This document shows positions 5,294-56,416 of a stretch of DNA of 64,000 bases, in pieces (the stretch's first letter is position 1; each line of letters begins with the position of its first letter). Source of the DNA: Plazaster borealis (taxonomy: Eukaryota; Echinodermata; Asteroidea; Forcipulatida; Labidiasteridae); the NCBI GenBank assembly GCA_021014325.1, contig CM037461.1, positions 5,857,501 through 5,921,500 of the forward strand, given 5' to 3'. Both the position numbers and the translations under genes were made by a program. Under the pieces are notes generated by a model. The model searched no databases. It was not told the origin of the DNA and saw nothing but the letters and a program-made list of their open reading frames with translations.

Positions 5294-5593
5294 AGTAGTA
5301 TGAACTATGGGGGTTCTGGACCACCTTGCTTTGGGGTATATACAAATAGAGCACATGGGGTTTGCTCCCAGCTTTTTTGATAGGGGTCGCCCCGCTCTCT
5401 TGGCGGGCTGCTGGTTTTTGACCACTTTTGGGTTGGGGTATATATCAATAGAGCACATGGGGTTCTGGACCACCTTGCTTTGGGGTATATACAAATAGAG
5501 CACATGGGGTTTGCTCCCAGTTTTATTGATAGGGCTCGCCCCGCTCTCTTGGCGGGCTGCTGGTTCTAGACCACTTTTGGGTTGGAGTATATA
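5294..5593. repeat. Polinton A left terminal inverted repeat
   Basis: It starts AGTAGTATGAAC and contains two nested modules of about 160 bp. Each has GGTTCTGGACCACCTTGC, a GGGGTATATAC / AATAGAGCACATGG segment and GCCCCGCTCTCTTGGCGGGC. The inverse is found at 21786-22084. The left end has one extra A relative to the complement of the right end, an asymmetry shared with copy B. Confidence 0.8.
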
Positions 5594-5622
5594 CAATTAG
5601 ACATATACACTGCACCTACACG

Positions 5623-5823
5623 ATGGAGTGTGATAAGTGCCACAAGTTTTTTAAGAGGTACTACAACCTGAAGGGACACCTGGAGAACCGTAAGACACAT
5701 TGCTTACAAGAACCACGGCAATACATATGTGTGGATTGTGGTGGGGAGCTGAGCTGTAGCTCTTCCTTGTGGAGGCACAAGAAGATTTGCCCGGCACACC
5801 GCAGAACAAAAACTGTGATATAA
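5623..5823 (+). CDS. Small C2H2-type zinc-finger protein
   Basis: 66 codons starting at ATG in the conserved CACGATGGAGTGT context that also closes the other terminus. Two zinc-binding units are visible. The first has CDKCHKFF, a basic aromatic stretch and H/H/C ligands. The second has CVDCGGE followed by WRHKKICPAH. Copy B carries the same protein (55905-56099) with few changes. It lies immediately inside the terminal repeat, so it may bind DNA there as a regulator or terminus-binding factor; that is inference. It appears intact. Confidence 0.7.
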   Translation: MECDKCHKFFKRYYNLKGHLENRKTHCLQEPRQYICVDCGGELSCSSSLWRHKKICPAHRRTKTVI

Positions 5824-5885
5824 CTTTCGTCTACGAAAGTTGAACACGAGCTAAGAGCTGTGACAACACCAACGAAAACTGTTGT

Positions 5886-6090
5886 TTAGCTTCTTTTTTT
5901 TGAGATATGTACCTATGTCTTATTTTGTCTCGGCCACAGTTTCGGCATAGCTGTATTTACAGGGTATTGAAATATTTCTGCCTTTACGGATCTTTACTAA
6001 GTGGTACTTACAATATTACCCGCAGCAGCTCCTATTACAAAGATCAACTTCACCAACTTTAACCCAAGCACAAACATTGTGTCCTTTCAT
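5886..6090 (-). pseudogene. Remnant of small Cys-rich (zinc-ribbon-like) protein
   Basis: Counterpart of the intact gene at 55588-55818 in copy B. The start region (MKGHNVCAWVK) is retained. A deletion of about 28 bp near 5960 removes the CKSCG part of the second metal-binding knuckle and shifts the frame. It converges with the zinc-finger gene. Confidence 0.6.
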
Positions 6091-6216
6091 TTCGCAGATT
6101 GAATATCTCAGGTATGCATTTATGTCTAAATGGTTTTTATCATTAGGGGAATCCCCAATTTATTGCGCAATGTGCATGGGAAATTCCCAAAGTTTTGTAA
6201 AATGAACACTTCAATA

Positions 6217-7328
6217 GACACAATCGGCGACCGGTGTCACGTGACTTATAGTGGGTATACAATGTAAACAAACAGCGCGGTGTGTATGGAAAAACATGGT
6301 AGCATCCGAGTGCCACTGCTGTAAGGGGTCATGATTCATGTTGCATTTGTTGGTTGCAAGTTACGACACGATTTTAACTTTTCTAAATCCATCTGAAGTA
6401 AATATAATATTAATAATAATAATAACGTAAACTTTTGTAGCGCCAAAATCCGTCAAAAAAGACGGAAGTGTGGCCAGTTTTGCAATGTTGAAACGTTGTC
6501 GAAATGGTTTGGTAAAGCTCCGAAAAACAGTGGCACACAAACGATCCTGGAAGTTTTGTTTATAAAGGGAAGAGTGAAATCATACATGTAGCCGTGTACA
6601 AGCAAATCAGAGGATGAGATCATCATGTAGCCACGAATTTTTGTTTATGATATTCGATATAGGCATCATATTATTTTATGAGGGATTTTTAGTGGACATG
6701 CAAAGAAAATAGTTAGTCAAGACCGGTTTATACGCACTCAAGGTGTTCAAAAGGCTTATAATTTGTTATGGTTTATAATATGAAGATTCCCCTCGTAACG
6801 AGTGAGAAAAAAACGTTTGATGCGACAAGTACAGTTCTTTTTAGAAGGGGGGAGAGAAAAAACAGAGGAAGGGTCAAAGAAAAACCGCGGGAGGGCCGGG
6901 AGGGGCGGACGAAAAGGACAGACGGACCGAGGCAGAAACCAGAGGAGTGCCAAAGCTTCGGCTCCGCCCAGACAGTCTGCAGAAAATTAATGATGAGTTG
7001 ATGGGAGTGCGGGACTAAATATAACTATTTACGGCGGTAGCCAATGAGAGAAAGCAATCTGTATAGGGAATCGTTGTGTACTGTAACTTATGTCCCATGG
7101 CTCCGGTGAGGTCTCTGAAAATGACCAAGTTCGTGTATTGTTCAAGTTGGTAGGTTAAAAAAACAGTAGGTGATGGTTAAAACAGAGCTTTTCTTCGATG
7201 TTTTCAAGCAAACTGCCGACAATCCCATTGAGCTCCCCGTGCTTAAACACTGCGCGCGAGGGTTTGTTGTGATTCTGTACCCACTATACGTCACGTGACC
7301 ACCGCTAGCTGGAGTCGCCGATTGTGTC
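6217..7328. mobile_element. 1.1 kb TIR element inserted in Polinton A (TA-flanked)
   Basis: The ends are inverted: GACACAATCGGCGACC at the left and the complement of GTCGCCGATTGTGTC at the right. Each is followed inward by CACGTGAC and TATAGTGGGTA. Copy B lacks the insertion (about 55466), giving an empty site; it is flanked by TA at 6215-6216 and 7329-7330. No transposase is visible, so it is probably a non-autonomous element (MITE). TA flanks suggest Tc1/mariner or a similar group. Copy B lacks one TA at the site, so the exact duplication is uncertain. Confidence 0.75.
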
Positions 7329-7456
7329 TATTAGAGATATGTGTGTTGTAGGTTATGCTATCACCAGCAAACCTGATGCCCTCTACTGTTGGGGTTTGTG
7401 TGTTAATGACTCTCTATTAGAGAAATACGTCGTAGGTTATACTGTAACCAATATAA

Positions 7457-9991
7457 ATGACGAGTACTTCAAAAACGTTTAGAACGGTACAAGACTACCA
7501 AAATAAGATTCTAGAGCAGTTTGAATATAAAGAGACGGATGAGCTAGTCTTTAGGCAGACCCCACGGGTGATCGGGAAATATCTGCGGGGTTGGCAGATA
7601 GTTGTGCTCAAAGGGCATCTCCTTAGCGCAGACCCCAGAGCTTTTCTGGACGACGTGCGCTCTCAGATTTACCAAAAACTTGAGGAAGAGCTTAAAGCTT
7701 TAAACGGTATTAAGTTTCAGCTGGCTCTCAAGCTTCAGCTTCGGAAAGACAACCCTGATGAGATTGAGGAATACACAGATCCCGTGCTCCGCCACAAACA
7801 AGAGTCTGTTTTGCAGGCTAACGATATTAATGATGCACTAGGCAGGGCCTTTCCCCGCACCCAGGAGACGCTTGAAAAATGTACTCAAAGAGGCTCGGGG
7901 TGGACGGTTGACCACGTAGAGATGCTGTGGCTTGACATTGCTCGGTACCAGCCCCTGAGAGGCGGCTCATACATTCCACTACCCGCAGCGGTGAAAAGCA
8001 AGAAGGCGATCATCAACGTGAAGAACAATGATGATCACTGCTTGAGATGGTTCTTACGGTCTGCTCTCTTCCCCGCCAGAGCCCACACGGATAGGCCTTC
8101 CCAATATCCCACTGATGATGGCCTAGACTTCACAGTGATCGAGGCCCCTACTCCCTACTCTCAGATCTTGAAGGTTGAAAAACAAAACAACCTAGCTATC
8201 AACATATTTGGCTTGGAAAAGGGTGTTATCGTTCACGGGCTAAGCAAAAGGCCCATGGACATGCCCAGGATTAACCTCTTGCTGATCGAGAAGGCAGGCA
8301 AGTTTCACTACACCTGGGTCAAAAACCTAAACCGTCTTCTCTACCAAGAAAACAAGCACCGGGAGCGTACGCACTTTTGTGAGAGATGTCTCCATGGGTA
8401 TTCGAGAGAAGACCTCCTAGAAGCTCACAAGCCTGAATGCTGTGGGATCGGTCAGACGGCGGTGAGGGTAGAGATGCCAGAAGAGGGAAAAAATAAGCTG
8501 ACCTTTCAAAACCACCACAAGCAGCTTCCCGCCCCTTTCATCATCTACGCCGACTTTGAGGCTCTAACTACAAAGGTAGAGGGGTCCGAGCTGGACCCCA
8601 CGAAGAGCAACACTCGGAAGACGCAGCACCACGAGACTTGTGGCTATTGCTTTGTAGTCGTTCGCTGCGATTGACGGACAAAAACACCTGTAGAATACCG
8701 TGGGTGGGCAATGAGCCAGTCGCTGCCTACAGGCGGCTTTGAGTGGGTGGAGGAGCCGTTGTCTACAAAAGTTTTAACGGAGCATCCGGCAGACAGCCCA
8801 GAGGGCTACATCTTGGAGGTACACTTAGAGTACCCTGTATAGCTCCACGACGCACACAACGCCTATCCGTTAGCGCCAGAGCGCATGGCCGTTCAGAGAG
8901 AGTGGATGTCCGAGTATCAGCACAACCTTCAATCTAAACTTTCCTCTAAAAAGGTTTCAGGCAAAAGATCGGCACCAACAGGGGTTGAAAAGCTGGTACC
9001 CAATCTCCGCGACAAAGAACGATATGTGCTACACTATCGCAACCTACAGCTGTACCTCTCTCTCGGCATGCGCTTGAAGAAGATCCACCGGGCTCTTCGC
9101 TTTGAGCAGAGCCCTTGGATGGAACCCTACATCCGGATGAACACGGAGCACCGGAAGGAGGCAACCAGCGACTTCGAAAAGAACCTCTACAAACTCATGA
9201 ACAATAGTGTGTTTGGGAAAACGATGGAGAACCTACGCAAGCGGTCGACGTTAAGCTGGTGCGCAGTGATGAAGAAGATAAGCTAAGGAGACTTATTGCC
9301 AGCCCGGCTTTTGCTTGGGCAAATATCTTTGATGACAACCTCGCGGCGATCCAGGTTCATAAGAGCCGCCCGGTACTCAACCGGCCCGCCTACGTGGGTA
9401 TGAGCATACTCGACCTCTCGAAGCACCTTATGTACGACTTCTACTATAATCAGATAAAGGCTCGGTATGGTGATCGGTGTCAGCTCCTTTACACAGACAC
9501 AGACTCTCTCCTCCTTGATATCCAAACCGAGGATGTGTACAAAGACATAGCCGAAGACCAGAACCTCTACGACACATCTGACTACCCCAAAGAGCACTAC
9601 CTCCACAACACGGTAAACAAGAAGGTATTGGGTAAGATGAAGGACGAGTGCGCCGGGCGCCCCATCGCCGAGTATTTGGGGCTGCGGCCTAAGATGTACT
9701 CTATCTTCGAGGCTGGCGGGAATAACATCAAAAAAGCCAAAGGTGTGAAAAAGTCTGTTGTGAAGAAACAAATTCGACATGAGCAGTACAAAGAGGCTCT
9801 ATCACAAAAAAGACCTTCCGCCACGGGATGGATGTTACGGGCTGCACCTGAACAAGGTATCACTCTCCCCCTTGGACACAAAGAGGTGGATAGCTGAAGA
9901 CGGTGTCACCACACTAGCCTATGGACACAGAGATATTAATCAAACTAATCTATTGCAAGCAAAAGATAATCTTTTGCAGGCAAAAGATTAG
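7457..9991 (+). pseudogene. polB: Protein-primed DNA polymerase B, inactivated (copy A)
   Basis: Family B polymerase of the protein-primed type that would replicate the element. The N-terminal part is open to 8674, including a Cys/His knuckle (HFCERCLHGYS) and Exo I (YADFEAL). There GGA is changed to TGA. About 1 kb is then deleted relative to copy B (junction near 8700, TGG microhomology), removing the HNH-like insert, Exo II, Exo III and motif A. Motif B (KLMNNSVFGKT) survives; one base is lost near 9248 and motif C (YTDTDSL) continues in another frame. A deletion of about 25 bp affects the C-terminus. The last residues, NLLQAKD twice, come from palindromic repeats. Clearly non-functional. 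Confidence 0.9.
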
Positions 9992-10112
9992 TTATTCTGC
10001 AAAACAAACTTTTGAAGACGAAAGTTGGGATAACTTTATCAACGAGATTTTCGCCTAAACCAAACTTTTCTGTAGAAAAGTTTTCGTAGACGAAAGTTTA
10101 AGCAAAAGTTTA
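9945..10112. repeat. Cluster of palindromic micro-repeats between PolB and integrase
   Basis: A perfect unit at 9968-9989 has arms AATCTTTTGC and GCAAAAGATT. Another at 10063-10082 has arms AACTTTTCT and AGAAAAGTT. Overlapping TTTTCGTAGACGAAA-type and partial units make up most of the rest. The tail-to-tail spacer between polB and the integrase consists almost entirely of these repeats, which also form the C-termini of both genes. Confidence 0.8.
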
Positions 10113-11103
10113 ACAGGTGGCACCTGGGTGTTGGGAGGCACCACAAGTAGCTCTTCTCGTACAAACCCACGAGCCGGTACCCCACGATCTTTCACAAGAT
10201 AATAAAGAACAGGCTCTGCGGGCTTAGTGACTGAACGCCCAAGCCGGTGCACCCGGAGGGACCATACTGGGTCAGTTGCGCGACGACGCCCACCTTCCAG
10301 CTCACCTGGCTGGTAGAGGTACCGAATGCCCACGTCCGAGGGGAGCTTTTGCTCGTTGAGACCAACAGGTCGGTCTGCAATGGTAGAGGGCTTTTGTTTT
10401 ACCGATTTTGCCTTGATGGCTTCTGAGGGCTTTTTTTCCGTCAATCTGGTAACCTCTGTTTTCAGAGCTAAGACAACAGCGGGAAGTCGTGCTACCCACT
10501 CAGTTGACCCCTCATCATCTGGGAGACGCAGCTCTGCCGCATACTGATGCCCAAAGAGCTTTTCTGCTAGAGTTCGGTTGAATCTTTCCACGATGCCCTG
10601 CGCTCGATGCAAATCTTTTTCACCCCGTCGGACTTTGACACCATGTTTTTCCAGAGTCTGGGATACGGAGCCCATAAACTCACGCCCAGGGTCAACCTGC
10701 AGCAGCTTCGGCCACTTCAAAGGTCCCCGCTTGTAAATGCGGGACAAAGCAGTAGCCACCTCAGCAGATTCCTTTGAAGTCAGTGGTTCAGCTTCTTTGT
10801 AGCGGCTGGCAACATCAACTACGGTCAGGGCGTATTTGTAAATCTTTCGGCCCCTGGGCAGGCGATCGTGTGGAAGAAACAATAGGTCAGCTTGGTGGAC
10901 TTCATTAGGCACTGAAATATAAAATTTTGGGCAAGCACATGGCGATGGGCTGGGAGATATATCTGCCATATAGCTTGTGTCTTGAGCCAATCTTTACTCA
11001 CATCTTGAGTGACTTTTGCAGCCCCGGCTAGTTTTTGTACGGCCGCAAGTCCCTTCCAGTATCCTTGGAGGCTGTAGTACAATGCAGACAGTTTAGCATC
11101 CAT
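10055..11103 (-). pseudogene. int: Retroviral-type integrase (DDE), frameshifted (copy A)
   Basis: An rve-fold integrase that would catalyse insertion with a 6-bp duplication. Catalytic acidic residues sit in HQADLLFLP, VDPGREF and GIVERFNRTL, with 34 residues between the second Asp and the Glu. A C-terminal domain follows (RYLYQPGELEGG). The start is ATG at 11103 by homology to copy B, and the N-terminal segment includes GYWKGLAAV. One base is missing near 10930 (GTGCTTGCC versus GTGCCTCGCC in B), separating the N-terminal part from the catalytic core. The C-terminus (KLSSTKTFLQKSLV) is encoded by two palindromic repeats. Confidence 0.9.
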
Positions 11104-11152
11104 ATAAGTTTACGCCTGCAAAGTCTAACTAAACTTTTCTGAAGAAAAAAAA

Positions 11153-11174
11153 AATCTTTTGCCTGCAAAAGATT
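11153..11174. repeat. Palindromic micro-repeat, 22 bp
   Basis: Perfect arms AATCTTTTGC / GCAAAAGATT around CT, in the spacer between the integrase start and the end of the late gene. An imperfect AACTTTTCT-type unit with an A-run adjoins it. Confidence 0.85.
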
Positions 11175-11177
11175 AGT

Positions 11178-11609
11178 TTACTTAACAATCATATAGGCTG
11201 CGAAAGAAGTAACTCCAAGCCCCATGATAACGAAAGCGATTTCGCGATCACGTTGCTCTGGGGACGGCAAGTAGAAATCTGAGAGTTTGGGTTTTGGTTC
11301 TTCTAGCGTGGGGGTCATTGAATCACTGTCAGCTATAAGATTGTACTGGCGAATAACTTTATCAACATCGCGGAAAGTGTGGACGGCATGTCCTTGGCGG
11401 CGAAGCTCTTCATTAACCCAGTCTAGGCGTTCGGCCCGCTTGCGTGACCATTCAGACTGCGCAGCTTGAAGTTGTTCTACAGCCTTGTCATGTCGTTTTC
11501 GCTTTTCATCGGCACCTGGATCACGCATCATCGAGAACAGAAAATATGACTCAGAGAACGCAAGTGCGTCCACGACCGTTCCGCCAACAAGCATTACAAT
11601 AGAAGCCAT
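11178..11609 (-). CDS. Late protein of unknown function (SPEQRDREIAF family), copy A-1
   Basis: 143 codons, apparently intact. It has an N-terminal hydrophobic segment (ASIVMLVGGTVV), then a charged helical middle (KRHDKAVEQLQAAQSEWSRK) likely to be coiled coil, then KLSDFYLPSPEQRDRE and a C-terminal hydrophobic segment (IAFVIMGLGVTSFAAYMIV). This suggests a small membrane-associated virion or assembly protein; the function is not known. Copy B has a single version at 50029-50475, with a palindrome inserted in the middle. Confidence 0.6.
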   Translation of the reverse strand: MASIVMLVGGTVVDALAFSESYFLFSMMRDPGADEKRKRHDKAVEQLQAAQSEWSRKRAERLDWVNEELRRQGHAVHTFRDVDKVIRQYNLIADSDSMTPTLEEPKPKLSDFYLPSPEQRDREIAFVIMGLGVTSFAAYMIVK

Positions 11610-11634
11610 CTTTCAAAACAAACTTTTGTTTAAT

Positions 11635-12027
11635 CTAGTTTTCGTATACGAAAGCGATTTCGCGATCACGTTGCTCTGGGGACGGCAAGTAGAAATCTGA
11701 GAGTTTGGGTTTTGGTTCTTCTAGCGTGGGGGTCATTGAATCACTGTCAGCTATAAGATTGTACTGGCGAATAGCTTCATCAACATCGCGGAAAGTGTGG
11801 ACGGCATGTCCTTGGCGGCAAAGCTCTTCATTAATCCAGTCTAGGCGTTCGGCCCTCTTGCGTGACCATTCAGACTGCGCAGCTTGAAGTTGTTCTACAG
11901 CCTTGTCATGTCGTTTTCGCTCTTCATCGGCACCTGGATTACGCATCATCGAGAACAGAAAATTTGACTCAGAGAACGCAAGTGCGTTCACGACCGTTCC
12001 GCCAACAAGCATTACAATAGAAGCCAT
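11635..12027 (-). pseudogene. Tandem duplicate of the SPEQRDREIAF late gene, truncated
   Basis: Nearly identical to 11178-11609 up to EIAFV, where it stops (VYEN) because the duplication joint lies in a palindrome ending TATACGAAAG. It therefore lacks the C-terminal membrane segment. The unit repeats about every 418 bp, and the joint uses the shared CGAAAGCGATTTCG/TACGAAAG sequence. Confidence 0.75.
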
Positions 12028-12155
12028 CTTTCAAAACAAACTTTTGTTTAATCTAGTTTTCGTATACGAAAAACTTTTCTATAGAAAAGTTTAGATAAGT
12101 TTAATTATATAAGTAATCTGTTGTGTTCAAAGTAAAACTGTTGTATTCAAAAGAT

Positions 12156-12394
12156 TTACGTTAATATGTCTGCAGGAAGTATCCCCTGCTTGACAAGCAT
12201 GTCTTTAGTTGCCATAGCTAGGCCAACATCTAGTATGACCATGCCAACATCATACGGCGCAAAGTCCAACTTTGGAGTAACACCTTTTATGATTTTTTTA
12301 CCGAGAGTAGCGTATCCTACGGCAAGTCCACTCACTACCGCGGAGTGGTACGCCAATTAGCAAGCTGTTTACCATCAGTACTGGGGGTAGTCAT
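12156..12394 (-). pseudogene. Small membrane protein (PYDVGMVILDVG family), frameshifted
   Basis: Counterpart of the 79-codon gene at 49687-49926. The start is ATG at 12394. One T is missing near 12355, so the first residues (TTPSTDGKQLAN) are out of frame with the conserved body GYATLGKKIIKGV and APYDVGMVILDVGLAMATKD. The hydrophobic centre suggests a membrane segment. The function is unknown. Confidence 0.6.
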
Positions 12395-12416
12395 TTTTTA
12401 TGCAAGTAGAAGATTG

Positions 12417-12992
12417 TTATTGCATATAATGAGGATTAGTTTGTTCGTCTAATATGTTTTTCTTCAATTTTTGCTCGTCAAAATTAGGCTCAAACTTTTC
12501 TGTAGAAAATCTTTTGCTTGCAAAAGATTGTTTGTTTGCAGACGAACTTAAAGTTTTCGGATGCGAAAGATTAGCATATACCACAGCTCCAACAGCTAAA
12601 ACAGCTCCCGCAAGGAGCAAATAATCTTTTGCCTGAAAAAATCTTTTGCCTGCAAAAGATTGGTTTAGGTTAATTTTTGATTGCGATGAGGTCTCACTTT
12701 CATGTTCGTGGTCGCACCGATAATCTTTTGCCTGCAAAAGATTGTTTGGATTCAGACTATCTTCAGAAAAATTAGGCTTGAGACTCTGTTTGGCCTTTCG
12801 CAGCTGCTCTTTCAGCGCTTCTTGTTTTGCTTTTCTAGCTGCTGCACCTTTGTGACCAGCCTCAACTTTTTTTGGATCTTTAGTCACTCTCTTGACTTTT
12901 AACGGCGTTGATGTCGTCTCTAGGTCTTGCGCTGCTGTCATCTCCAGAGCTTGTGTTGCTTCTGTCGATGTCGTTTCCAAGTTTTGTGTCAT
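12417..12992 (-). CDS. Basic protein with one TM segment, expanded by palindromes (copy A)
   Basis: 191 codons, open throughout. The N-terminal part is acidic and Thr-rich (NLETTSTEATQALEM). Next comes a strongly basic stretch (GAAARKAKQEALKEQLRKAK), then a membrane segment (YLLLAGAVLAVGAVVYA). Several stretches are translated palindromic repeats: NLLQAKDY, SFAGKRFFQAKDY and SFASKRFSTEKF. Copy B (49149-49661) has some at other places. It overlaps the upstream gene by about 113 bp in another frame, as in B. Possibly a DNA-binding or virion protein; that is inference. Confidence 0.6.
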   Translation of the reverse strand: MTQNLETTSTEATQALEMTAAQDLETTSTPLKVKRVTKDPKKVEAGHKGAAARKAKQEALKEQLRKAKQSLKPNFSEDSLNPNNLLQAKDYRCDHEHESETSSQSKINLNQSFAGKRFFQAKDYLLLAGAVLAVGAVVYANLSHPKTLSSSANKQSFASKRFSTEKFEPNFDEQKLKKNILDEQTNPHYMQ

Positions 12993-13600
12993 CTAAACTT
13001 TCGTGTACGAAAGTTTTACTTATACGATCTTTAGACGTGTCTTTAAATTGACAGTGCTTAGCAGTTGTCATCGCTGCTGTTAGCGGAGCTAAGTACATCC
13101 CATAGCGATAATACAGCTCGCAGCAGGCTGTCGTCAGCGCATGTCCGACAAAGGGGTCCTCCTCGAGGTTTATGACGAGCTGGGGCTTATTTTCGGGTGG
13201 AATGGGTAGAAATGTGCTAGCCGCAAGTGCATACATCTGCAGCGCAGACGCCCCGAGGGTTTTTGTCATTGAGGCCCCTAGTCGTGCCTCATAGCGGCCA
13301 TAGTGCTTAGAGATCTCGTCATCGCTCATCACGTCAAGTTGTGCAAGGGTTAGTCGGGTTCCTATATATTTTAGGGCTGAGCCGCCAGCCACAATTGCAG
13401 CCAGACGGGTCCGTTTTTGGCAATCTTTTGGCTGCAAAAGATTATCTTTTGCAGCAGGCAAAAGATTTGCTGAATCTTTCGTAGACGAGGTGCAGCTCAA
13501 ACTTTTGTGTCTACAAAAGTTTTGTTTAGTGTCGAGACGGGGCTTTCGTCGGGAACCTCTTGCAACAATTGGTCGATCACATCATCGCAATTTATAATCC
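12880..13600 (-). pseudogene. Late protein (SDDEISKHYGRYEARLG family), start lost and frameshifted
   Basis: The conserved body (LTLAQLDVMSDDEISKHYG, ALQMYALAASTFLPIPP, EDPFVGHAL, CELYYRYGMYLAPLTAAMTT) matches 48552-49261. In copy A the start codon ATG has become ATA, so the N-terminal NCDDVIDQLLQEVPDES part is joined to the upstream small gene. A palindrome near 13500-13520 carries two extra bases that shift the frame. A second palindrome region supplies NLLPAAKDNLLQPKD. The function is unknown; its position beside the packaging ATPase suggests a structural or assembly role. Confidence 0.6.
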
Positions 13601-13609
13601 AATCTAAAC

Positions 13610-13850: not shown

Positions 13851-13910
13851 CAGGCTATTAAGCTATGTTAACAATTGATAAGCAACCGGCTGAGCAGTCT
13901 TAAGTATAAG

Positions 13911-45001: not shown

Positions 45002-45002
45002 A

Positions 45003-47679: not shown

Positions 47680-48378
47680 ACCAAACTTATCTTTTGCAGG
47701 CAAAAGATTGTTTTCGTCAACGAAAGTTCAAAGTAAAACTTTCGTACACGAAAGTTTAGACAAAAGTAAAAACTTATACGAGGATAAGTTTAAACCCCAC
47801 TCGGCCATCATCTGTGGCCAGACTGGCTGTGGGAAAACAGTCTTTATCTTAAACCTTCTCGAAGATCACTACTGCGGCGAATTTTCGCACATCGTTATAC
47901 TCTGCCCCACAATTCGTTGGAACAAAACGTACCACGAGCGATCCTGGGTGTGGACAGACCCAGAGGTCTATATCGTCGACCCTGGCGATCAGCTTCAAAA
48001 GTGGTTGCGAGCTTTTTACTCGATTTTTGCTGGCGAGCCGACATTGTACATCATCGACGACTGCTCAGCTAGTAAAGCTCTGACCAAAAGAAAGACATGC
48101 TGTCTGAGCTTGCGTTCTCGGGGCGCCACGCCTCTCAATCTGTGTGGGTTTTGACGCAAAAGTATAACTCGGTTCTTAAAGATCTCCGCGAGCAGACTAA
48201 GTGGATAGGGCTCTTCCACTGCAAGGACAGGGACTCTTTTGAAGATTGCCTGCGAGAAAACGACGTTGTCCCGACGAGAGAGGAGCGAGATGCGCTTAGA
48301 CAGCAGCTATCTAAAGCTAAACACGCTAAGCTTATACTAAAGACTGCTCAGCCGGTTGCTTATCAGTTGTTAACATAG
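47651..48378 (+). pseudogene. atp: Packaging ATPase (FtsK/HerA, A32-like), copy B
   Basis: It starts at ATG 47651 inside the MCP end. Walker A GQTGCGKT, Walker B TLYIIDDCSA. One A is missing near 48090 (ACCAAAAGAAAG against AAAAAG in A), so the last third (SELAFSGRHASQ, FEDCLRENDVVP) lies in another frame. The N-terminal linker between STKP and PHSAI is much longer than in A and consists of translated palindromes (LSFAGKRLFSSTKV, KTFVHESLD, NLYEDKF). Confidence 0.85.
47690..47795. repeat. Palindromic repeats forming the ATPase linker (copy B)
   Basis: In order: ATCTTTTGCAGGCAAAAGAT, a TTTTCGTCAACGAAAG-type unit, AACTTTCGT/ACGAAAGTT with an ACAC centre, and AACTTATAC/ATAAGTT. The reading frame passes through all of them. 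Confidence 0.8.
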
Positions 48379-48405
48379 CTTAATAGCTTGCTAAACTAAA
48401 GTTCT

Positions 48406-48513
48406 ATGTGGGAGCAAACACAGCTAGCCATACAAACTATACATCTGGCAGTAGTTCTTGTGATGTTTGTCAAGTATGTTAGACTCATGCGCATAAACTT
48501 ATACAGAGTATAA
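48406..48513 (+). CDS. Very small membrane protein (35 codons)
   Basis: MWEQTQLAIQTIHLAVVLVM followed by a short basic tail. One predicted membrane segment. The stop codon TAA belongs to a palindrome (AACTTATACAGAGTATAAGT). It lies between the ATPase and the next late gene. Its function is unknown; it resembles small virion membrane proteins only in size and hydrophobicity. Confidence 0.45.
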   Translation: MWEQTQLAIQTIHLAVVLVMFVKYVRLMRINLYRV

Positions 48514-48551
48514 GTTTGATCTCAAAAGTAATCTTTTGCTCACAGAAGATT

Positions 48552-49261
48552 ATGGATTGTGATGATTTGATCAACCAATTGTTGCAAGAGGTTCCCGATG
48601 AAAGCACCGATACCACCGTCTCGACGCTAAACAAAACTTTTGTAGACAAAAGTTTGAGCTGCACCTCGTCTACAAAAGATTTGCCAGCAAAAGATTACAA
48701 AAGTTTAGATCGTTTGCAAGAACAAAAACGGACCCGGCTGGCGGCAATTGTGGCTGGCGGCACAGCTAAAAATACATAGGAACCCGACTAACCCTTGCAC
48801 AACTTGATGTGATGAGTGATGACGAGATTTCTAAGCACTATAGCCGCTATGAGGCACGACTAGGGGCCTCAATGACAAAAACTCTCGGGGCGTCTGCGCT
48901 GCAGATGTATGCACTAGCGGCTAGCACATTTCTACCAATTCCACCCGAAAATAAGCCTCAGCTCGTCATAGACCTCGAGGAGGACCCCTTTGTCGGACAT
49001 GCGCTGACGACAGCCTGCTGCGAGCTGTATTATCGCTATGGTATGTACTTAGCCCCGCTTACAGCAGCGATGACAACTGCTAAGCACTGTCAATTTAAAG
49101 ACAAAACTTATACGAGTATAAGTAAAACTTTCGTACACGAAAGTTTAGATGACAGAAAACTTGGAAACGACATCGACAGAAGCAGCACAAGCTCTGGAAA
49201 TGACAGCAGCGCAAGACCTAGAGACGACATCGACGCAGTTAAAAGTCAAGAGAGTGACTAA
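48552..49261 (+). pseudogene. Late protein (SDDEISKHYSRYEARLG family), copy B
   Basis: It starts at ATG 48552 (DCDDLINQLLQEVPDES). KTFVDKSLSCTSSTKDLPAKDY is translated palindrome sequence; the conserved body follows. One base is missing near 48765 (GGCACAGCTAAAAA against GGCTCAGCCCTAAAA), shifting the frame before the conserved domain. KTFVHESLDD near the end is another repeat. It overlaps the next gene by 113 bp. Confidence 0.6.
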
Positions 49262-49661
49262 ACTTTTGCCAGCAAAAGTTTTAACTAATAAAGATCCACA
49301 AAAAGTTGAGGCTGGCCGCAAAGGTGCAGCAGCTAGAAAAGTAAAACAAGAAGCGCTGAAAGAGCAGCTGCGAAAGGCCAAACAGAGTCTCAAGTCTGAA
49401 GATAATCTTAATCCTTCATCTACAAAAGACCGTGAACATAAAAGTGAAATCTCATCGCAATCAGAAACTAATCTTTTGCCTGCAAAAGATTATCTTTTGC
49501 AGGCAAAAGATTGTTTGCTCCTTGCAGGGGCTGTTATAGCTGTTGGAGCTGTGGTATATGCTAAGTTTTCGTATACGCCTGCAAAACAATTACCAAATGT
49601 ATCTCAAAAATCAAAGACAAACATATTAGACAAACAAACTAATCCTCATTATATGCAATAA
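49149..49661 (+). CDS. Basic protein with one TM segment (copy B)
   Basis: 170 codons, open. It has the same architecture as 12417-12992: a Thr-rich start (NLETTSTEAAQALEM), the basic stretch GAAARKVKQEALKEQLRKAK, and the membrane segment CLLLAGAVIAVGAVVYA. A 30-bp block containing a perfect palindrome (49261-49280) is present here and absent from copy A, adding ten residues (LLPAKVLTNK) in frame. LLPAKDYLLQAKD before the membrane segment is two further repeats. Confidence 0.65.
   Translation: MTENLETTSTEAAQALEMTAAQDLETTSTQLKVKRVTKLLPAKVLTNKDPQKVEAGRKGAAARKVKQEALKEQLRKAKQSLKSEDNLNPSSTKDREHKSEISSQSETNLLPAKDYLLQAKDCLLLAGAVIAVGAVVYAKFSYTPAKQLPNVSQKSKTNILDKQTNPHYMQ
49261..49280. repeat. Palindromic micro-repeat, in frame, absent from copy A
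   Basis: Arms AACTTTTGC / GCAAAAGTT around CA. Copy A reads GTGACTAAAGATCC straight through at this point. Confidence 0.9.
49470..49512. repeat. Two abutting palindromic micro-repeats in a coding frame
   Basis: The first (49470-49491) has arms AATCTTTTGC/GCAAAAGATT with CT centre. The second (to 49511) has the reverse centre AG. They encode NLLPAKDYLLQAKD. Confidence 0.85.
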
Positions 49662-49686
49662 TAATCTCCTACTTGCATAACAAAAA

Positions 49687-49926
49687 ATGACTACCCCCAG
49701 TACTGATGGTAAACAGCTTGCTAATTTGGTGTACCACTCCGCCGTAGTAAGTGGACTTGCTGTGGGATACGCTACTCTTGGTAAAAAAATCATAAAAGGT
49801 GTTACGCCAAAGTTAGACTTTGCGCCGTATGATGTTGGCATGGTCATACTAGATGTTGGCCTAGCTATGGCCACTAAAGACATGCTTATCAAGCAGGGGA
49901 TACTCCCTGCAGACATATTAAAGTAA
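49687..49926 (+). CDS. Small membrane protein (PYDVGMVILDVG family), copy B
   Basis: 79 codons, intact, starting TTPSTDGKQLANLVYH. It contains GYATLGKKIIKGV and APYDVGMVILDVGLAMATKD with a hydrophobic centre. No known function. Preceded and followed by palindrome-rich spacers. Confidence 0.6.
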   Translation: MTTPSTDGKQLANLVYHSAVVSGLAVGYATLGKKIIKGVTPKLDFAPYDVGMVILDVGLAMATKDMLIKQGILPADILK

Positions 49927-49929
49927 AGA

Positions 49930-50022
49930 TGTATAAGTTTTCTCTTTTGAATACAAAAGATTATACAAATATAAGTTAAACTAATCTTTTGTCTACAAAA
50001 AACTTTTGTCTACAAAAGTTTA
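49930..50022. repeat. Palindrome-rich spacer
   Basis: A TTTTGAATACAAAAGATTATAC.. unit and two AACTTTTGTCTACAAAA units back to back just upstream of ATG 50029. Confidence 0.75.
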
Positions 50023-50028
50023 AGTTTG

Positions 50029-50475
50029 ATGGCTTCTATTGTAATGCTTGTTGGCGGAGCGGTCGTGAACGCACTTGCGTTCTCTGGGTCAAATTTTCTG
50101 TTCTCGATGATGCGTGATCCAGGTGCCGATGAAGAGCGAAAACGACATGACAAGGCTGTAGAACAACTTCAAGCTGCGCAGTCTGAATGGTCACGCAAGA
50201 GGGCCGAACGCCTAGACTGGATTAATGAAGAGCTTCGCCGCCAAGGACATGCCGTGCACACTTTCCGCAATGTTGATGAAGCTATTCGCCAGTACAATCT
50301 TATAAACTTTTCTACAGAAAAGTTTGGCAGTGATTCAATGGCCCCCACGCTAGAAGAACCAAAACCCAAACTCTCAGATTTCTACTTGCCGTCCCCAGAG
50401 CAACGTGATCGCGAAATTGCTTTCGTTATCATGGGGCTTGGAGTTACTTCCTTCGCAGCCTATAAACTTTCGTAG
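50029..50475 (+). CDS. Late protein (SPEQRDREIAF family), copy B, modified by two palindromes
   Basis: About 148 codons from ATG 50029. It is the same protein as 11178-11609, but a 20-bp palindrome at 50305-50324 adds NFSTEKFG where A has AD (net +18 bp, frame kept). A second palindrome (50465-50484) replaces the last residues (YMIVK in A) by YKLS and provides the TAG stop. The hydrophobic ends and charged middle are conserved. Function unknown. Confidence 0.65.
   Translation: MASIVMLVGGAVVNALAFSGSNFLFSMMRDPGADEERKRHDKAVEQLQAAQSEWSRKRAERLDWINEELRRQGHAVHTFRNVDEAIRQYNLINFSTEKFGSDSMAPTLEEPKPKLSDFYLPSPEQRDREIAFVIMGLGVTSFAAYKLS
50305..50324. repeat. Palindromic micro-repeat, in frame, absent from copy A
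   Basis: Arms AACTTTTCT/AGAAAAGTT around AC. Flanks CTTATA and CAGTGATTC are the same in A, where only GCTGA lies between them. Confidence 0.92.
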
Positions 50476-50690
50476 ACGAAAGTTTGGATTGATAAGTAAA
50501 CTAATCTTTTGCCTGCAAAAGATTATCTTTTGAAAACTTTTCTGTAGAAAAGTTTGATTAGGTTTAGTTTAGTTATTTTTGCAATCACAAACTAATCTTT
50601 GCAGGCAAAAGATTTTTTTCTACAGATATTCTTTTGATTGTAAAAAAACTTTTCTTCAGAAAAGTTTAGTTAGACTTTGCAGGCGTAAAC
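50465..50690. repeat. Palindrome cluster before the integrase
   Basis: AACTTTCGT/ACGAAAGTT (50465-50484), AATCTTTTGC/GCAAAAGATT (about 50502-50523), AACTTTTCT/AGAAAAGTT (about 50533-50552), and further imperfect units to 50668. About 200 bp here contains little else. Confidence 0.8.
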
Positions 50691-50694
50691 TTAT

Positions 50695-51721
50695 ATGGAT
50701 ACTAAACTGTCTGCATTGTACTACAGCCCCAAGGATACTGGAAGGGACTTGCGGCCATACAAAAACTAGCCGAGGCTGCAAAAGTCACTCAAGATGTGAG
50801 TAAAGATTGGCTCAAGAGACAAGCTATATGGCAGATATATCTCCCAGCCCCTCGCCATGTGCCTCGCCCAAAATTTGATATTTCAGTGCCTAATGAAGTC
50901 CACCAAGCTGACCTACTGTTTCTTCCACACGATCGCCTGCCCAGGGGCCGAAAGATTTACAAATACGCCCTGACTGTGGTTGATGTTGCCAGCCGCTACA
51001 AAGAAGCTGAACCACTGACTTCAAAGGAATCCACCGAGGTGGCTACTGCTTTGTCCCGCATTTACAAGCGGGGACCTTTAAAGTGGCCGAAGGTGCTGCA
51101 GGTTGACCCTGGGCGTGAGTTTATGGGCTCCGTATCCCAAACTCTGGAGAAACATGGTGTCAAAGTCCGACGGGGTGAAAAAGATTTGCATCGAGCGCAG
51201 GGCATCGTGGAAAGATTCAACCGAACTCTAGCAGAAAAGCTCTTTGGGCATCAGTATGCGGTAGAGCTGCGTCTCCCAGATGATGAGAGGTCAACTGAGT
51301 GGGTAGCACGACTTCCCGCCGTTGTCTTAGCTCTGAACACAGAGGTTACCAGATTGACGGAAAAAAGCCCTCAGAAGCCATCAAGGCAAAATCGGTAAAA
51401 CAAAAGCCCTCTACCATTGCAGACCGCCCTGTTGGTCTCAACGAGCAAAAGCTCCCCTCGGGCGTGGGCGTTCGGTACCTCTACCAGCCAGGTGAGCTAG
51501 AAGGTGGGCGTCGTCGCGCAACTGACCCAGTATGGTCCCTCCGGGTGCACCGGCTTGGGCGTTCAGTCACTAAACCCGGAGAGCCTGTTCTTTATTATCT
51601 TATGAAAGATCGTGGGGTACCAGCTCGTGGGTTTGTACGAGAAGAGCTACTTGTGGTGCCTCCCAACACCCAGGTGCCACCTGTTAAACTTTTGCTTAAA
51701 CTTTCGTCTACGAAAGTTTAG
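50695..51721 (+). pseudogene. int: Retroviral-type integrase (DDE), copy B
   Basis: It starts at ATG 50695. Same catalytic motifs as copy A (HQADLLFLP, VDPGREF, GIVERFNRTL). One base is missing near 50728 (CAGCCCCAAGG against CAGCCTCCAAGG), and one A is missing in the A-run near 51361, so N-terminus, core and C-terminal domain are in three frames. The A copy is normal at both places and broken elsewhere. The last six residues (LSSTKV) and the adjoining TAG come from a palindrome. Confidence 0.9.
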
Positions 51722-51794
51722 GCGACAATCTCGTTGATAAACTAAACTAATCTTTGCAAGCAAAAGATAATCTTTGCAGGCAAAAGATTAGTTT
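51685..51794. repeat. Palindromes in the integrase/PolB convergent spacer (copy B)
   Basis: One AACTTTCGT/ACGAAAGTT unit at the end of the integrase, then two AATCTTTGC..GCAAAAGATT-type units. The spacer occupies the same position as 9945-10112 but with a different set of repeats. Confidence 0.75.
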
Positions 51795-54700
51795 TTATGC
51801 AGGCATAATATCTTTGTGCCCATAGGCTAGTGTGGTGACACCGTCTTCAGCTATCCACCTCTTTGTGTCCAAGGGGAGAGTGATACCTTGTTCAGACGCT
51901 GACCGTAAATTCTATGTCTCTCAGAACGCAGCACATCCATCCCGTGGCGGAAGGTCTTTTTTGTGATAGAGCCTCTTTATACTGCTCATGTCGAATTTGT
52001 TTCTTCACAACAGACTTTTTCACACCTTTGGCTTTTTTGATGTTATTCCCGCCAGCCTCGAAGATAGAGTACATCTTAGGCCGCAGCCCCACATACTCGG
52101 CGATGGGGCGCCCGGCGCACTCGTCCTTCATCTTTCCCAATACCTTCTTGTTTACCGTGTTTTGGAGGTAGTGCTCTTTGGGGTAGTCAGATGTGTCGTA
52201 GAGGTTCTGGTCTTCGGCTATGTCTTTGTACACATCCTCGGTTTGGATATCAAGGAGGAGAGAGTCTGTGTCTGTGTAAAGGAGCTGACACCGATCACCA
52301 TACCGAGCCTTTATCTGATTATAGTAGAAGTCGTACATAAGGTGCTTCGAAAGGTCGAGTATGCTCATACCCACGTAGGCGGGCCGGTTGAGTACCAGGC
52401 GGCTCTTATGAACCTGGATCGCCGCGAGGTTGTCATCAAAGATGTTTGCCCGAGCAAAGGCCGGGCTGGCAATAAGTCTCCTTAGCTTATCTTCTTCATC
52501 ACTGCGCACCAGCTTAACGTCGACCCGCTTGCGTAGGTTCTCCATTGTTTTCCCAAATACACTATTGTTCATGAGTTTGTAGAGGTTCTTTTCGAAGTCG
52601 CTGGTTGCCTCCTTCCGGTACTCCGTGTTCATCCGGATGTAGGGTTCCATCCAAGGGCTCTGCTCAAAGCGAAGAGCCCGGTGGATCTTCTTCAAGCGCA
52701 TGCCGAGAGAGGTACAGCTGTAGGTTGCGATAGTGTAGCACATATCGTTCTTTATCACGGAGATTGGGTACCAGCTTTTCAACCTCTGTTGAAACTAATC
52801 TTTTGCCTGAAAACTTTTCTGTAGAAATAATCTTTTGCTTGCAAAAGATTAGGTTGTGCTGATACTCGGACATCCACTCTCTCTGAACGACCATGCGCTC
52901 TGGCGCTAACGGATAGGCGTTGTGTGCGTCGTGGAGCTCTACAGGGTACTCTAAGTCTACCTCCAAGATGTAGCCCTCTGGGCTGTCTGCCGGATGCTCC
53001 GTTAAAACTTTTGTAGACAACAGCTCCTCCACCCACTCAAAGCCGCCTGTAGGCAGCGACTGGCTCATTGCCCACCCATATAGGTTGTTAGCATCCAGGT
53101 AAGAATTGTACCTGTTCGGCTCGGAGGGGTTAAAGCCCTTAAACAAAGGGTTGTTAGCTCTCGCAAAGCGCTTAGATACCATGGAGATACCACCTCGCAT
53201 CCCCTTCTCGATGAAAAGGTGCTGGTCATAGTCTGTGAGCAGTTTGAGTTCTACACCCGTCTTTTTGAGCAACGCGTCCCAAGAGAGGCCAGGACTGGTG
53301 TAGTAATGTGCGGGGTCCAAGCCGTACTGCCGCATGCAGGTCTTCCGGAAAGTCTCGAAGACATCTGCCAAAAGGAGCACATCTGTGCGGTTGTAGAGGT
53401 CGTGGTAGTCTCCCATGGTGTGGCATCTAAAGGTCTCCCACACCTTTTGTGCATGAACGTAGTCGGCCTCGCTAATGTACTCGTCTTTCAGCTTGCTGTA
53501 GAAGGCTTCCTTCGGAGGGAGACCTGGCTCTGCAAACCTTTCCCAAGAGTCCATGTACTCGTACGGGTAGACGCCCTTGCGCAACAAAAGATTGCGCCTT
53601 TCTTTACATGGCTCGTACTGGCCCGTTATTTGGAAAGCCTCGGGCAGGTTGGCTGCTACTAACTCGTCAAGAGAGGACGGCAAGAACTGGACGCTGTCGA
53701 TAAATCGGAGCTGACCGAGGGAGAAGCTAATGTATTTCTCGGTGTTGTTCGGGATGCAAGAAATCTTACCCTCTACCTTGGAAATAGCCTGCATCAGGAG
53801 GTGAGAATCGTAGCCCCGCAAATTGTGGAAGACCACAGGTATGGTTGTGGTTTTAGGGCTCAGGCGCAGCTTCAAGTTGCAAGCGTTGTGTGCAGCACCT
53901 CTGAATTTTCCAGTGATATGACAGTGGTCGCGGACAGTATCTCCCTCAAGTGGCTTCTCACACACGTGGCAGGTGGTGGCTGCCTTAAAGGCTCGCCGGT
54001 CATTAGCGGTCATCTTCATTGCTTTAGGGTTGGCTAGCACCTCCTTGATCTTTCGCTCCTCATACTGGATCGCTTTTAAGAAGTGCTCCGCCGCGTCGTG
54101 TCCACGGTATTCTACAGGTGTTTTTGTCCGTCCATCGCAGCGAACGACTACATAGCAATAGCCACAAGTCTCGTGGTGCTGCGTCTTCCGAGTGTTGCTC
54201 TTCGTGGGGTCCAGCTCGGGCCCCTCTACCTTTGTAGTTAGAGCCTCAAAGTCGGCGTAGATGATGAAAGGGGCGGGAAACTGCTTGTGGTGGTTTTGAA
54301 AGGTCAGCTTATTTTTTCCCTCTTCTGGCATCTCTACCCTCACCGCCGTCTGACCGATCCCACAACATTCAGGCTTGTGAGCTTCTAGGAGGTCTTCTCT
54401 CGAGTACCCATGGAGACATCTCTCACAAAAGTGCGTACGCTCCCGGTGCTTGTTTTCTTGGTAGAGAAGACGGTTTAGGTTTTTGACCCAGGTGTAGTGA
54501 AACTTGCCTGCCTTCTCGATCAGCAAGAGGTTAATCCTGGGCATGTCCATGGGCTTTTTGCTTAGCCCGTGAACAATAACACCCTTATCCCAGCCAAATA
54601 TGTTGATAGCTAGGTTGTTTTGTTTTTCAACCTTCAGGATCTGAGAGTAGGGAGTAGGAGCCTCGATCCCCGTGAAGTCTAGGCCATCATCAGTGGGATA

Positions 54701-55348
54701 TTGGGAAGGCCTATCCGTGTGGGCTCTGGCGGGGAAGAGAGCAGACCGTAAGGACCATCTCAGGCAGTGATCATCATTGTTCTTCACGTTGATGACCGCC
54801 TTCTTGCTTTTCACCGATGCGGGTAGTGGAATGTATGAGCCGCCTCTCAAGGGCTGGTACCGAGCAATGTCAAGCCACAGCATCTCTACGTGGTCAACCG
54901 TCCACCCCGAGCCTCTTTGAGTAAATTTTTCAAGCGTCTCCTGGATGCGGGGAAAGGCCCTGTCTAGTGCATCATTAATATCGTTAGCCTGCAAAACAGA
55001 CTCTTGTTTGTGGCGGAGCACGGGATCAGTGTATTCCTCACTCCCATCAGGGTTGTCTTTTCGAAGTTGAAGCTTGAGAGCCAGCTGAAACTTAATACCG
55101 TTAAAAGCTTTAAGCTCTTCCTCAAGTTTTTGGTAAATCTGAGAGCGCACGTCGTCCAGAAAGGCTCTGGGGTCTGCGCTAAGGAGATGCCCTTTGGGCA
55201 CAACCATCTGCCAACCCCGCAGATATTTCCCGATCACCCGTGGGGTCTGCCTAAAGACTAGCTCATCCGTCTCTTTATATTCAAACTGCTCTAGAATCTC
55301 ATTTTGGTAGTCTTGTACCGTTCTAAACGTTTTTGAAGTACTCGTCAT
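51795..55348 (-). pseudogene. polB: Protein-primed DNA polymerase B, near complete but frameshifted (copy B)
   Basis: About 1,180 codons. Order (residues approximate): N-terminal Cys/His knuckle HFCERCLHGYS (310), Exo I YADFEAL (366), HNH/endonuclease VII-like insert CHVCEKPL..DHCHITGKFRG..CN (455-490), Exo II NLRGYDSHL (507), Exo III YNRTDVLLLAD (650), motif A LDANNLYGW (750), motif B KLMNNSVFGKT (920), motif C YTDTDSL (1020). Loss of CT near 52706 separates motif B onward. A six-A run near 51953 (also in A) and a lost C near 51875 disturb the C-terminus. It would replicate the element from a terminal protein; here it is probably dead. Confidence 0.9.
52797..52855. repeat. Palindromes inside the PolB palm region (copy B)
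   Basis: Three overlapping units (AATCTTTTGC.., AACTTTTCTGTAGAAA.., AATCTTTTGCTTGCAAAAGATT) between SEYQHNL and VEKLVPNL. Copy A has a different, shorter repeat-derived segment at 8930-8975. The frame is open in both. Confidence 0.8.
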
Positions 55349-55587
55349 TTATAGTATAAGCTACGACGTATTTCTCTAATAGAGAGTCATTAACACACAA
55401 AACCCAACAGTAGAGGGCATGAGGTTTGCTGGTGATAGCATAACCTACAACACACATATCTCTAATTGAAGTGTTCATTTTACAAAACTTAGGAATTTCC
55501 CATGCACATTGCGCAATAAATTGGGGATTCCCTAATGATAAAAACCATTTAGACATAAATGTATACCTGAGATATTCAATCTGCGAA

Positions 55588-55818
55588 ATGAAAGGACACA
55601 ATGTTTGTGCTTGGGTTAAAGTTGGTGAAGTTGATCTTTGTAATAGGAGCTGCTGCGGTAAATATTGTAAGTACCACTTAGTAAAGATCCGTAAAGGCAG
55701 AAATATTTCAATACCCTGTAAATCCTGTGGTATTGGGGTTCAGAGTGAAATACAGCTATGCCGAGACTGTGGCCGAGATAAAATAAGACATAGGAACATA
55801 TCTCAAGAAAAAAGCTAA
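55588..55818 (+). CDS. Small Cys-rich (zinc-ribbon-like) protein
   Basis: 76 codons from ATG 55588 (KGHNVCAWVKVGEVD). Cysteines and histidines are arranged as CNRSCCGKYCKYH, then CKSCGIGVQ and CRDCGRDK, so one or two zinc sites are likely. It lies between and opposed to PolB and the zinc-finger gene. The frame is also open upstream to 55471 without an ATG. Function unknown. In copy A it is broken by a deletion. Confidence 0.55.
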   Translation: MKGHNVCAWVKVGEVDLCNRSCCGKYCKYHLVKIRKGRNISIPCKSCGIGVQSEIQLCRDCGRDKIRHRNISQEKS

Positions 55819-55904
55819 ACAACAGTTTTCGTTGGTGTTGTCACAGCTCTTAGCTCGTGTTCAACTTTCGTAGACGAAAACTTTGCCTGCAAAAGTTTGT
55901 TATA

Positions 55905-56099
55905 TCACAATTTTGTTCTGCGGTGTGCCGGGCAAATCTTCTTGTGCCTCCACAAGGAGGAGCTACAGCTCAGCTCCCCACCACAATCCATACATATGTA
56001 TTGCCGCGGTTCTTGTAAGCAAGGTGTCTTACGGTTCTCCAGGTGTCTCTTCAGGTTGTAGTACCTCTTAAAAAATTTGTGGCACTTATCACACTCCAT
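55905..56099 (-). CDS. Small C2H2-type zinc-finger protein (copy B)
   Basis: 64 codons from ATG 56099; orthologue of 5623-5823. It has CDKCHKFFKRYYNLK and CMDCGGE..WRHKKICPAH. The start lies just inside the terminal repeat. A palindrome pair at 55863-55895 separates it from the convergent Cys-rich gene. Confidence 0.7.
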   Translation of the reverse strand: MECDKCHKFFKRYYNLKRHLENRKTPCLQEPRQYICMDCGGELSCSSSLWRHKKICPAHRRTKL

Positions 56100-56146
56100 C
56101 GTGTATACAGGTGCAGTGTATATGTCTAATTGTATATACAAATGAG

Positions 56147-56416
56147 GCGTTAAGGTTGAAAGTCACTGGCTGTGGGTCGAGCCCGCCAAGAGAGCGGGGC
56201 GAGCCCTATTAAAACCTAATTTTCGTATACGAAAATTTAGTAGAACCCCATGTGCTCTATTTGTATATATACCCCAACCCAAAAGTGGTCTAGAACCAGC
56301 AGCCCACCAAGAGAGCGGGGCGAGCCCTATCAAAAAAGCTGGGAGCAAACCCCATGTGCTCTATTTGTATATACCCCCAAGCAAGGTGGTCCAGAACCCC
56401 CATTGTTCCTACTACT
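56147..56416. repeat. Polinton B terminal inverted repeat (right)
   Basis: Inverse of 41094-41361. It includes the palindrome AATTTTCGT/ACGAAAATT near 56217-56236 and ends CCTACTACT before TCTTGA. Confidence 0.85.

Follow-up and report, generated by a model that had tools for sequence, protein, structure and literature searches.

A family of short palindromes in two Polinton copies of the sea star Plazaster borealis and its possible mobility

Two Polinton copies and their palindromes

The window analyzed here is a stretch of 64,000 nucleotides from the sea star Plazaster borealis (assembly GCA_021014325.1, contig CM037461.1, positions 5,857,501 to 5,921,500 of the forward strand). It holds two inverted copies, A and B, of one Polinton, and both carry a family of short palindromes that is the subject of this work. 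The longer aligned blocks of the two copies are 85–97% identical. Three typical Polinton genes scored above their Pfam cut-offs: the DNA polymerase PolB (DNA_pol_B_2), a retroviral-like integrase (rve) and an A32-type ATPase (Pox_A32). A double jelly-roll capsid model was matched by none of the 19 element open reading frames (ORFs) put through Pfam, with no search directed at a capsid made. The terminal inverted repeats (TIRs) of copy B are 274 nt long and 99% identical, and a 6-bp target duplication, TCTTGA, flanks the copy on either side (41088–41093 and 56417–56422), with the left border ambiguous by one base. The same hexamer ends the left flank of copy A (5288–5293), which points either to a target preference or to a shared history of both insertions. 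Copy A also holds two tandem duplications (16093–18254 and 11230–11947, 1862 and 418 bases from start to start), each single in B; in the 300 bases compared, their repeats match at 99% and 98%. The terminal repeat had no match in a phage collection.

The original prediction, made from the sequence alone, described dozens of inverted repeats with a 2-nt centre that saturate both copies and are absent from the surrounding host DNA. A scan of the window for perfect 10-base arms around a 2-base centre confirmed the family, with 27 of the 30 dyads lying inside the elements (11 in A, 16 in B) and 3 in the 32 kb of host DNA. All 27 element dyads cluster as one family, in which the nearest other arm matches at 9 or more of 10 positions. 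The three host dyads carry other arms, and two of those resemble each other. Dinucleotide shuffles, 20 per element, yielded no perfect dyad of this form. Sites with both arms of the family type number 14 in A, 21 in B and 0 in the host DNA, where 26 sites have at least one family arm (1, 14 and 11 across three host stretches) and none has both. Family half-sites reach 33.7 per 10 kb in A and 36.5 in B, against 3.1–5.3 in the three host stretches, far from an equal density in the flanks. The six arm subtypes that had been named are all present.

This restriction concerns the family, not palindromes in general, because looser dyads in the host DNA also exceed the host's own shuffles. Host palindromes of other sequence lie at 58244, 60261, 61329 and elsewhere. 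Near the right end, the host DNA contains a repeat array with palindromes of a separate kind, AGGTGTTCGTGC.. and TTCCGGTTTGAACCGGAA (61495–61576, 63466–63527, 58244, 58999, 60261 and 62162).

The units (Table 1) cluster between PolB and the ATPase. When units with at least 9 of 10 pairs are counted, this part holds 15 of the 18 in A (9.9–13.9 kb) and 17 of the 22 in B (47.7–52.9 kb), so that the term saturating was an overstatement for a family that is indeed in both copies. Within the gene-rich part, conserved coding sequence makes up about 71% of the bases and holds 0 of the 15 units of A and 3 of the 17 of B, within limits set by hand that leave out the palindrome-made integrase end and ATPase start. 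A core, AAnCTT, is near-constant across units. The 2-nt centre holds for most of them, but centres of 0 (the terminal-repeat type AATTTTCGTATACGAAAATT), 3 (13687 and 48495) and 4 nt (13499) also occur. The proposed rule that all units start with AA and end with TT is broken by CAACTTTCGT..ACGAAAGTTG at 21645 and 41365 and by TAACTTTCGT..GTTG at 5821.

Table 1. Polinton copies and palindromic units in the window; palindromes carry no strand (.)
Copy	Positions	Strand	Feature
A	5294..21919	+	Polinton copy A; PolB on +; holds two tandem duplications
A	5821..5842	.	Subterminal palindrome, common to B (there with a nested 19-nt palindromic unit)
A	9968..9989	.	Perfect, AATCTTTTGC type
A	10062..10083	.	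Perfect, AAACTTTTCT type; 21-nt in-frame addition at integrase 3' end; not in B; nested in another palindrome
A	11153..11174	.	Perfect, AATCTTTTGC type; directly after ORF144 stop
A	12071..12092	.	Perfect, AAACTTTTCT type
A	12508..12529	.	Perfect, AATCTTTTGC type
A	12640..12661	.	Perfect, AATCTTTTGC type
A	12722..12743	.	Perfect, AATCTTTTGC type
A	12995..13016	.	Perfect, AAACTTTCGT type; identical in B (49125)
A	13422..13467	.	Two overlapping units, AATCTTTTGC type, 9/10 pairs each
A	13499..13522	.	AAACTTTTGT type, 4-nt centre; B counterpart (48634) has a 2-nt centre
A	13606..13627	.	Perfect, in 39-nt unit not in B; 39-nt unit again in A PolB linker (35/39)
A	13653..13674	.	Near-perfect; not in B
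A	13687..13709	.	AAACTTATAC type, one arm base changed; perfect in B (48495)
A	13822..13843	.	Perfect, AATCTTTTGT type, in 27-nt unit not in B; integrase-end module with two paired arm changes
A	20175..20196	.	Near-perfect; common to B (42834)
A	21645..21666	.	Subterminal, perfect; common to B (41365)
A	21739..21758	.	Terminal-repeat palindrome AATTTTCGTATACGAAAATT
B	41093..56416	-	Polinton copy B; PolB on -; TIRs 41093-41366 / 56143-56416
B	41272..41291	.	Terminal-repeat palindrome, one end of B
B	41365..41386	.	Subterminal, perfect; common to A (21645)
B	42834..42855	.	Near-perfect; common to A (20175)
B	43604..43625	.	Near-perfect; missing from both tandem copies in A
B	44832..44853	.	Perfect, AAACTTTCGT type
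B	44929..45001	.	Tandem chain of units, AAACTTTTGT type; perfect unit 44980-45001
B	47688..47791	.	Three palindromes (47688, 47736, 47770) in 5' part of ATPase frame, before or at edge of matched domain
B	48495..48517	.	AAACTTATAC type, 3-nt centre
B	48634..48655	.	Perfect, AAACTTTTGT type
B	49125..49146	.	Perfect, AAACTTTCGT type
B	49260..49281	.	Perfect, AAACTTTTGC type, in 30-nt unit not in A
B	49470..49512	.	Two abutting AATCTTTTGC palindromes
B	50000..50021	.	Perfect, AAACTTTTGT type; directly before ORF144 start
B	50304..50325	.	Perfect, in ORF144; encodes NFSTEKFG; not in A
B	50464..50485	.	Perfect; not in A; provides ORF144 stop in B
B	50503..50555	.	Two perfect palindromes (50503, 50534)
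B	50646..50667	.	Perfect, AAACTTTTCT type
B	51698..51719	.	Perfect, AAACTTTCGT type; integrase 3' end
B	52829..52850	.	Perfect, AATCTTTTGC type, within PolB frame; linker shorter in homologs
B	55877..55898	.	Palindromic 19-nt unit nested in subterminal palindrome; not in A
B	56218..56237	.	Terminal-repeat palindrome, other end of B

Paired arm changes and differences between the copies

The two arms of a unit change together. The arm-pair test took sites where each arm separately resembles a family arm, scored identity over nine positions and re-dealt the partners 2000 times. Identical pairs were found at 12 of 14 sites in A and 19 of 21 in B, against re-dealt means of 3.45 and 4.09 and maxima of 9 and 10. 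This upholds the earlier suggestion that compensating arm changes reflect selection or copying acting on the dyad. A covariation score over 49 units (33 distinct) was 0.395, compared with 0.154 after shuffling and no more than 0.141 when the pairing was slid, in rows that are related copies and had been chosen beforehand to have 8 or more of 10 pairs; the re-dealt comparison is therefore the fairer test. Four palindromes folded as single-stranded DNA gave 9-bp stems at −5.6 to −6.8 kcal/mol.

Presence and absence of units in A and B were scored by eye on alignments of the two DNA copies. Ten loci have a palindrome in one copy only (10062, 13606, 13653 and 13822 in A; 43604, 49260, 50304, 50464, 52829 and 55877 in B). 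About nine other units are common to both, e.g., 12995/49125, 20175/42834, 21645/41365 and the terminal-repeat unit, and the remaining ones sit in clusters without assignable A/B homology. Five events have clean borders, at 10062, 13606, 13822, 49260 and 55877, with lengths of 21, 39, 27, 30 and 19 nt. The insertions at 10062 and 55877 lie within existing palindromes, between AAC and TTTC. A context of NANC|TT, found at 1.77% of positions, occurs at four of the five clean insertions; its P value of 5e-7 serves as a guide only, since the motif was defined after the sites had been viewed and 49260 has several equivalent placements. Inspection by eye found no consistent target-site duplication at the five clean sites, the TTTA repeat at 49260 being a single case.

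Longer modules that contain palindromes also recur. The 39-nt unit at A13600 is found again at A8930, in the PolB linker, with 35 of 39 positions the same. The module at the integrase end (A10080 and B51691) is found once more at A13815; flanks and centre are unchanged there, and two arm positions differ, each together with its partner in the opposite arm. The A13815 module gives the clearest single instance of compensating change in a copied module. Spacer inversions between A11153 and B50503 and between A12640 and B49470 were considered as a template-switch signature and are not claimed, because the homology of the units is ambiguous.

Palindromes within genes

Units also occur inside genes, where protein homologs allow a comparison with 120 matches listed per protein for PolB, the integrase and ORF144, a small conserved protein. 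In all three, palindrome-encoded residues in the window copies are found in none of the matches listed for that gene; the places are the PolB linker, the integrase C terminus and ORF144. In coding sequence, A and B differ in length at three places, by 12, 21 and 18 nt, each a multiple of three; the encoded peptides differ between the three proteins.

The PolB linker lies between EWMSEYQ and EKLVPNL. This anchor pattern is present in 76 of the 120 matches listed, 75 of which have linkers of 9–15 residues, while the other one has a linker of 66 residues made of internal repeats. The linkers of the window copies have 22 and 26 residues, are encoded via palindromic DNA and differ between A and B. 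Full-length palindrome peptides were found in none of the 120 PolB matches listed, with shuffles giving 0–1. One PolB homolog, P0120, has several internal repeats of the VEKLLLGVGVAPTE type in its linker at the same place, so the linker tolerates length change elsewhere too.

The integrase anchor is present in 113 of the 120 matches listed, and 93 of these end 16–17 residues after it; two homologs among the matches listed have long unrelated tails. In A, 29 palindrome-rich residues follow the anchor, and the last residues and the stop come from palindromic DNA. In B, the C-terminal frame ends at 51721, within the palindrome at 51698. The peptides KLSSTK and TFLQKS occur in none of the 120 matches listed. 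Several integrase homologs and one ORF144 homolog (P0131, P0140, P0149, P0153, P0155, P0156, P0176, P0219 and P0326) are named as proteins of Thiodiazotropha or Sedimenticola metagenome-assembled genomes, which are probably host-animal DNA binned with a symbiont.

ORF144 of B has the residues NFSTEKFG from the palindrome at 50304, and ORF144 of A is without them. NFSTEKF is found in none of the 120 homologs listed. The corresponding stretch is 12–20 residues long in homologs among the matches listed versus 22 in B, and the closest of them (P0241, 88% identical) resembles A in having the short form.

Origin of the family and its counterparts elsewhere

Units that are present in one copy only, that are nested in one another and that lie inside genes whose listed homologs do not have them favor copying and insertion over selection for function. 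It seems somewhat probable that the family consists of hairpin-forming micro-elements of about 20–24 nt, with composite modules of 27–39 nt, that multiply by self-copying and insertion in a single Polinton lineage and so behave like minute mobile parasites of the transposon. Protein-primed polymerases such as those of adenovirus and phi29 leave long displaced single strands, and Polinton PolB is taken to do so by analogy. The copying step is probably template switching on such exposed strands. The 9-bp stems would fold during protein-primed replication by PolB. A growing strand could leave the foot of a hairpin (AAAC/AATC), take a similar hairpin as its template and rejoin the original one at a TT run, with an inserted copy as the outcome. 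If the switch stayed inside a single hairpin, one arm would be rewritten from the other, giving compensating changes. Purifying selection would then leave the units chiefly in spacers, at gene ends and in linkers that tolerate them. The wider proposal is tentative, possible rather than probable: a self-complementary micro-mobile DNA of about 22 nt that needs no transposase, spreading in a eukaryotic virus-like transposon through hairpin-driven template switching in protein-primed replication, with symmetric rewriting of arms and in-frame entry into replication and integration genes.

Template switching between inverted repeats has been described to homogenize arms and, in some cases, to invert spacers (PMC8604942), and it can be a source of perfect stems and of compensating changes at several bases (PMC8794818). 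The process portrayed in the cited parts of these papers would account for the perfect stems and multi-base compensation here as well. There the process alters a repeat that is already in place (PMC8604942, PMC8794818); the present proposal extends it to the dispersal of a palindrome family to new sites.

Several observations weigh against self-copying micro-elements. PolB is broken into separate frames in both copies, and no active copy or intermediate was seen among the two copies in the window. Bases adjoining the units differ too at 13653, 43604, 50304, 50464 and 52829, leaving clean borders at five of the ten loci, and the insertion context there was recognized after the fact. With two DNA copies to compare, the gains are polarised only in the three protein cases. 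Of the five covariation measures, two do not stand out: the 6 pairs changed on both sides were equalled in 62 of 500 shuffles, and the 14 pair types in 21 of 500. Spacer inversion, a mark of template switching, is only suggested by A12640 versus B49470, whose homology is ambiguous. The conserved terminal and subterminal copies suggest that some units have a function, and a binding-site role of these copies may exist alongside mobility.

A rival proposal is that the palindromes are binding sites for a dimeric element protein, e.g., a replication, packaging or transcription factor, kept by selection. Dispersed palindromes of this kind are familiar from the hr regions of baculoviruses. Confinement to the elements within the window, conservation of terminal and subterminal copies in A and B, the near-constant core and the mostly 2-nt centre fit this proposal. 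It is nevertheless unlikely, as there are several arm types, each mostly symmetric, and exact symmetry at variable positions gains a dimer little; turnover between A and B and insertion into coding sequence also argue against it. Movement as nano-MITEs (very small miniature inverted-repeat transposable elements) by a transposase, either the Polinton integrase or a host enzyme, would explain the discrete insertions, the inverted-repeat structure and the apparent preference for a short target. The lack of a consistent target duplication at the clean sites, where MITEs would have a fixed one, and the recurrence of composite modules of varying length make it rather improbable.

The palindromes might instead act in RNA, as hairpins that end or process transcripts in the manner of the mimivirus hairpin rule. 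Compensated arm variation would suit this, as would the units at gene ends: at the integrase stop, directly behind the ORF144 stop in A and, in B, providing that stop itself. However, units also lie within PolB and ORF144, upstream of the ORF144 start and in the terminal repeats, and Rfam has no match within the window at gathering scores. The mimivirus hairpins are polyadenylation signals that resemble the present units as gene-end palindromes with variable arms (PMC4402537). They have a transcript-end function and, in the portion of that account cited here, no nucleotide conservation; the units here form a sequence family with shared arms and are also found within genes (PMC4402537). An RNA role is accordingly quite doubtful. 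Decay of low-complexity spacers, with slippage and unequal exchange of AT-rich repeats, might be seen in the tandem chain at 44929–45001 and the abutting pair at 49470–49512, and exchange between two B-like units could have given rise to A 11089–11188. This explanation is hardly credible, given that dinucleotide shuffles yield no perfect dyads and that dispersed single units and coding insertions are left unexplained.

The original prediction judged, without a search, that such a family was new to Polintons, and none is described, going by titles and abstract openings, in the open-access papers listed for Polintons, Mavericks and adintoviruses. Analogues are already known in organelle and bacterial genomes. 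The GC clusters of yeast mitochondrial DNA (mtDNA) turn over and merge, and their mode of multiplication is described as unresolved in the cited text (PMC4478555). Like the present units, they are short palindromes that proliferate in one small genome, vary in copies and sites and form composites; they differ in being mitochondrial, GC-rich, 18–42 nt long for the clusters named there and associated with a putative AG target duplication (PMC4478555). The present units are AT-rich, belong to a nuclear virus-like transposon, have several arm subtypes and come without a consistent duplication. The hairpin elements of sponge mtDNA (PMC2800124) and the organelle palindromes of Volvox (PMC2670323) are similarly selfish-looking and fill spacers. 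As portrayed in the cited parts of those papers, they are mainly organellar and noncoding, whereas the units here also lie inside genes. The Polinton units thus share multiplication and presence/absence variation (ten loci) with organelle hairpins and reside inside Polintons instead of an organelle.

The palindromic elements of Rickettsia are alike in being in-frame palindromic insertions in protein genes (PMC10969869). Those elements are about 150 bp long, bacterial and, in the cited portion of the source, encode a conserved peptide (PMC10969869). Insertion in frame was found here for PolB, the integrase and ORF144, with units of 20–39 nt and different peptides in place of the long element and its conserved peptide.

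Look-alikes occur in other genomes. The single pattern AAACTTTYGTNNACRAAAGTTT, scanned in a collection of genome contigs, gave 89 loci, of which 85 (90 matches) are of a TTTTGT type, 3 of a TTTCGT type and 1 mixed. Most of the TTTTGT-type loci, which are bacterial, are parts of longer hairpins or have gttttttg-like sequence next to them, in a limited number of genomes, and a link to the Polinton family was judged to be convergence. Repeated AAACTTTTGTNNACAAAAGTTT copies are seen across bacterial phyla (Negativibacillus, Ruminiclostridium, Defluviitaleaceae, Desulfovibrionaceae and Auribacterota), often in longer hairpins with GGGG..CCCC arms and gttttttg flanks, as a dispersed palindrome. Three palindrome patterns searched in viral contigs gave 0, 0 and 1 matches. 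The contig concerned, L090, has two units with a AACTTTTCT arm (2415–2436 and 301–322) and looks like an inovirus-type phage from its ORFs by eye; this resemblance was likewise judged convergent. No relative was found in the viral contigs with the integrase, PolB or both protein alignments.

A nuclear protein-primed element whose palindromes behave like those of organelles would suggest exposed single strands as a shared cause. Many young copies within one genome could be compared, which would make the question of how palindromes multiply testable. The palindromes inside genes would also show a route by which a virus-like element acquires new protein segments.

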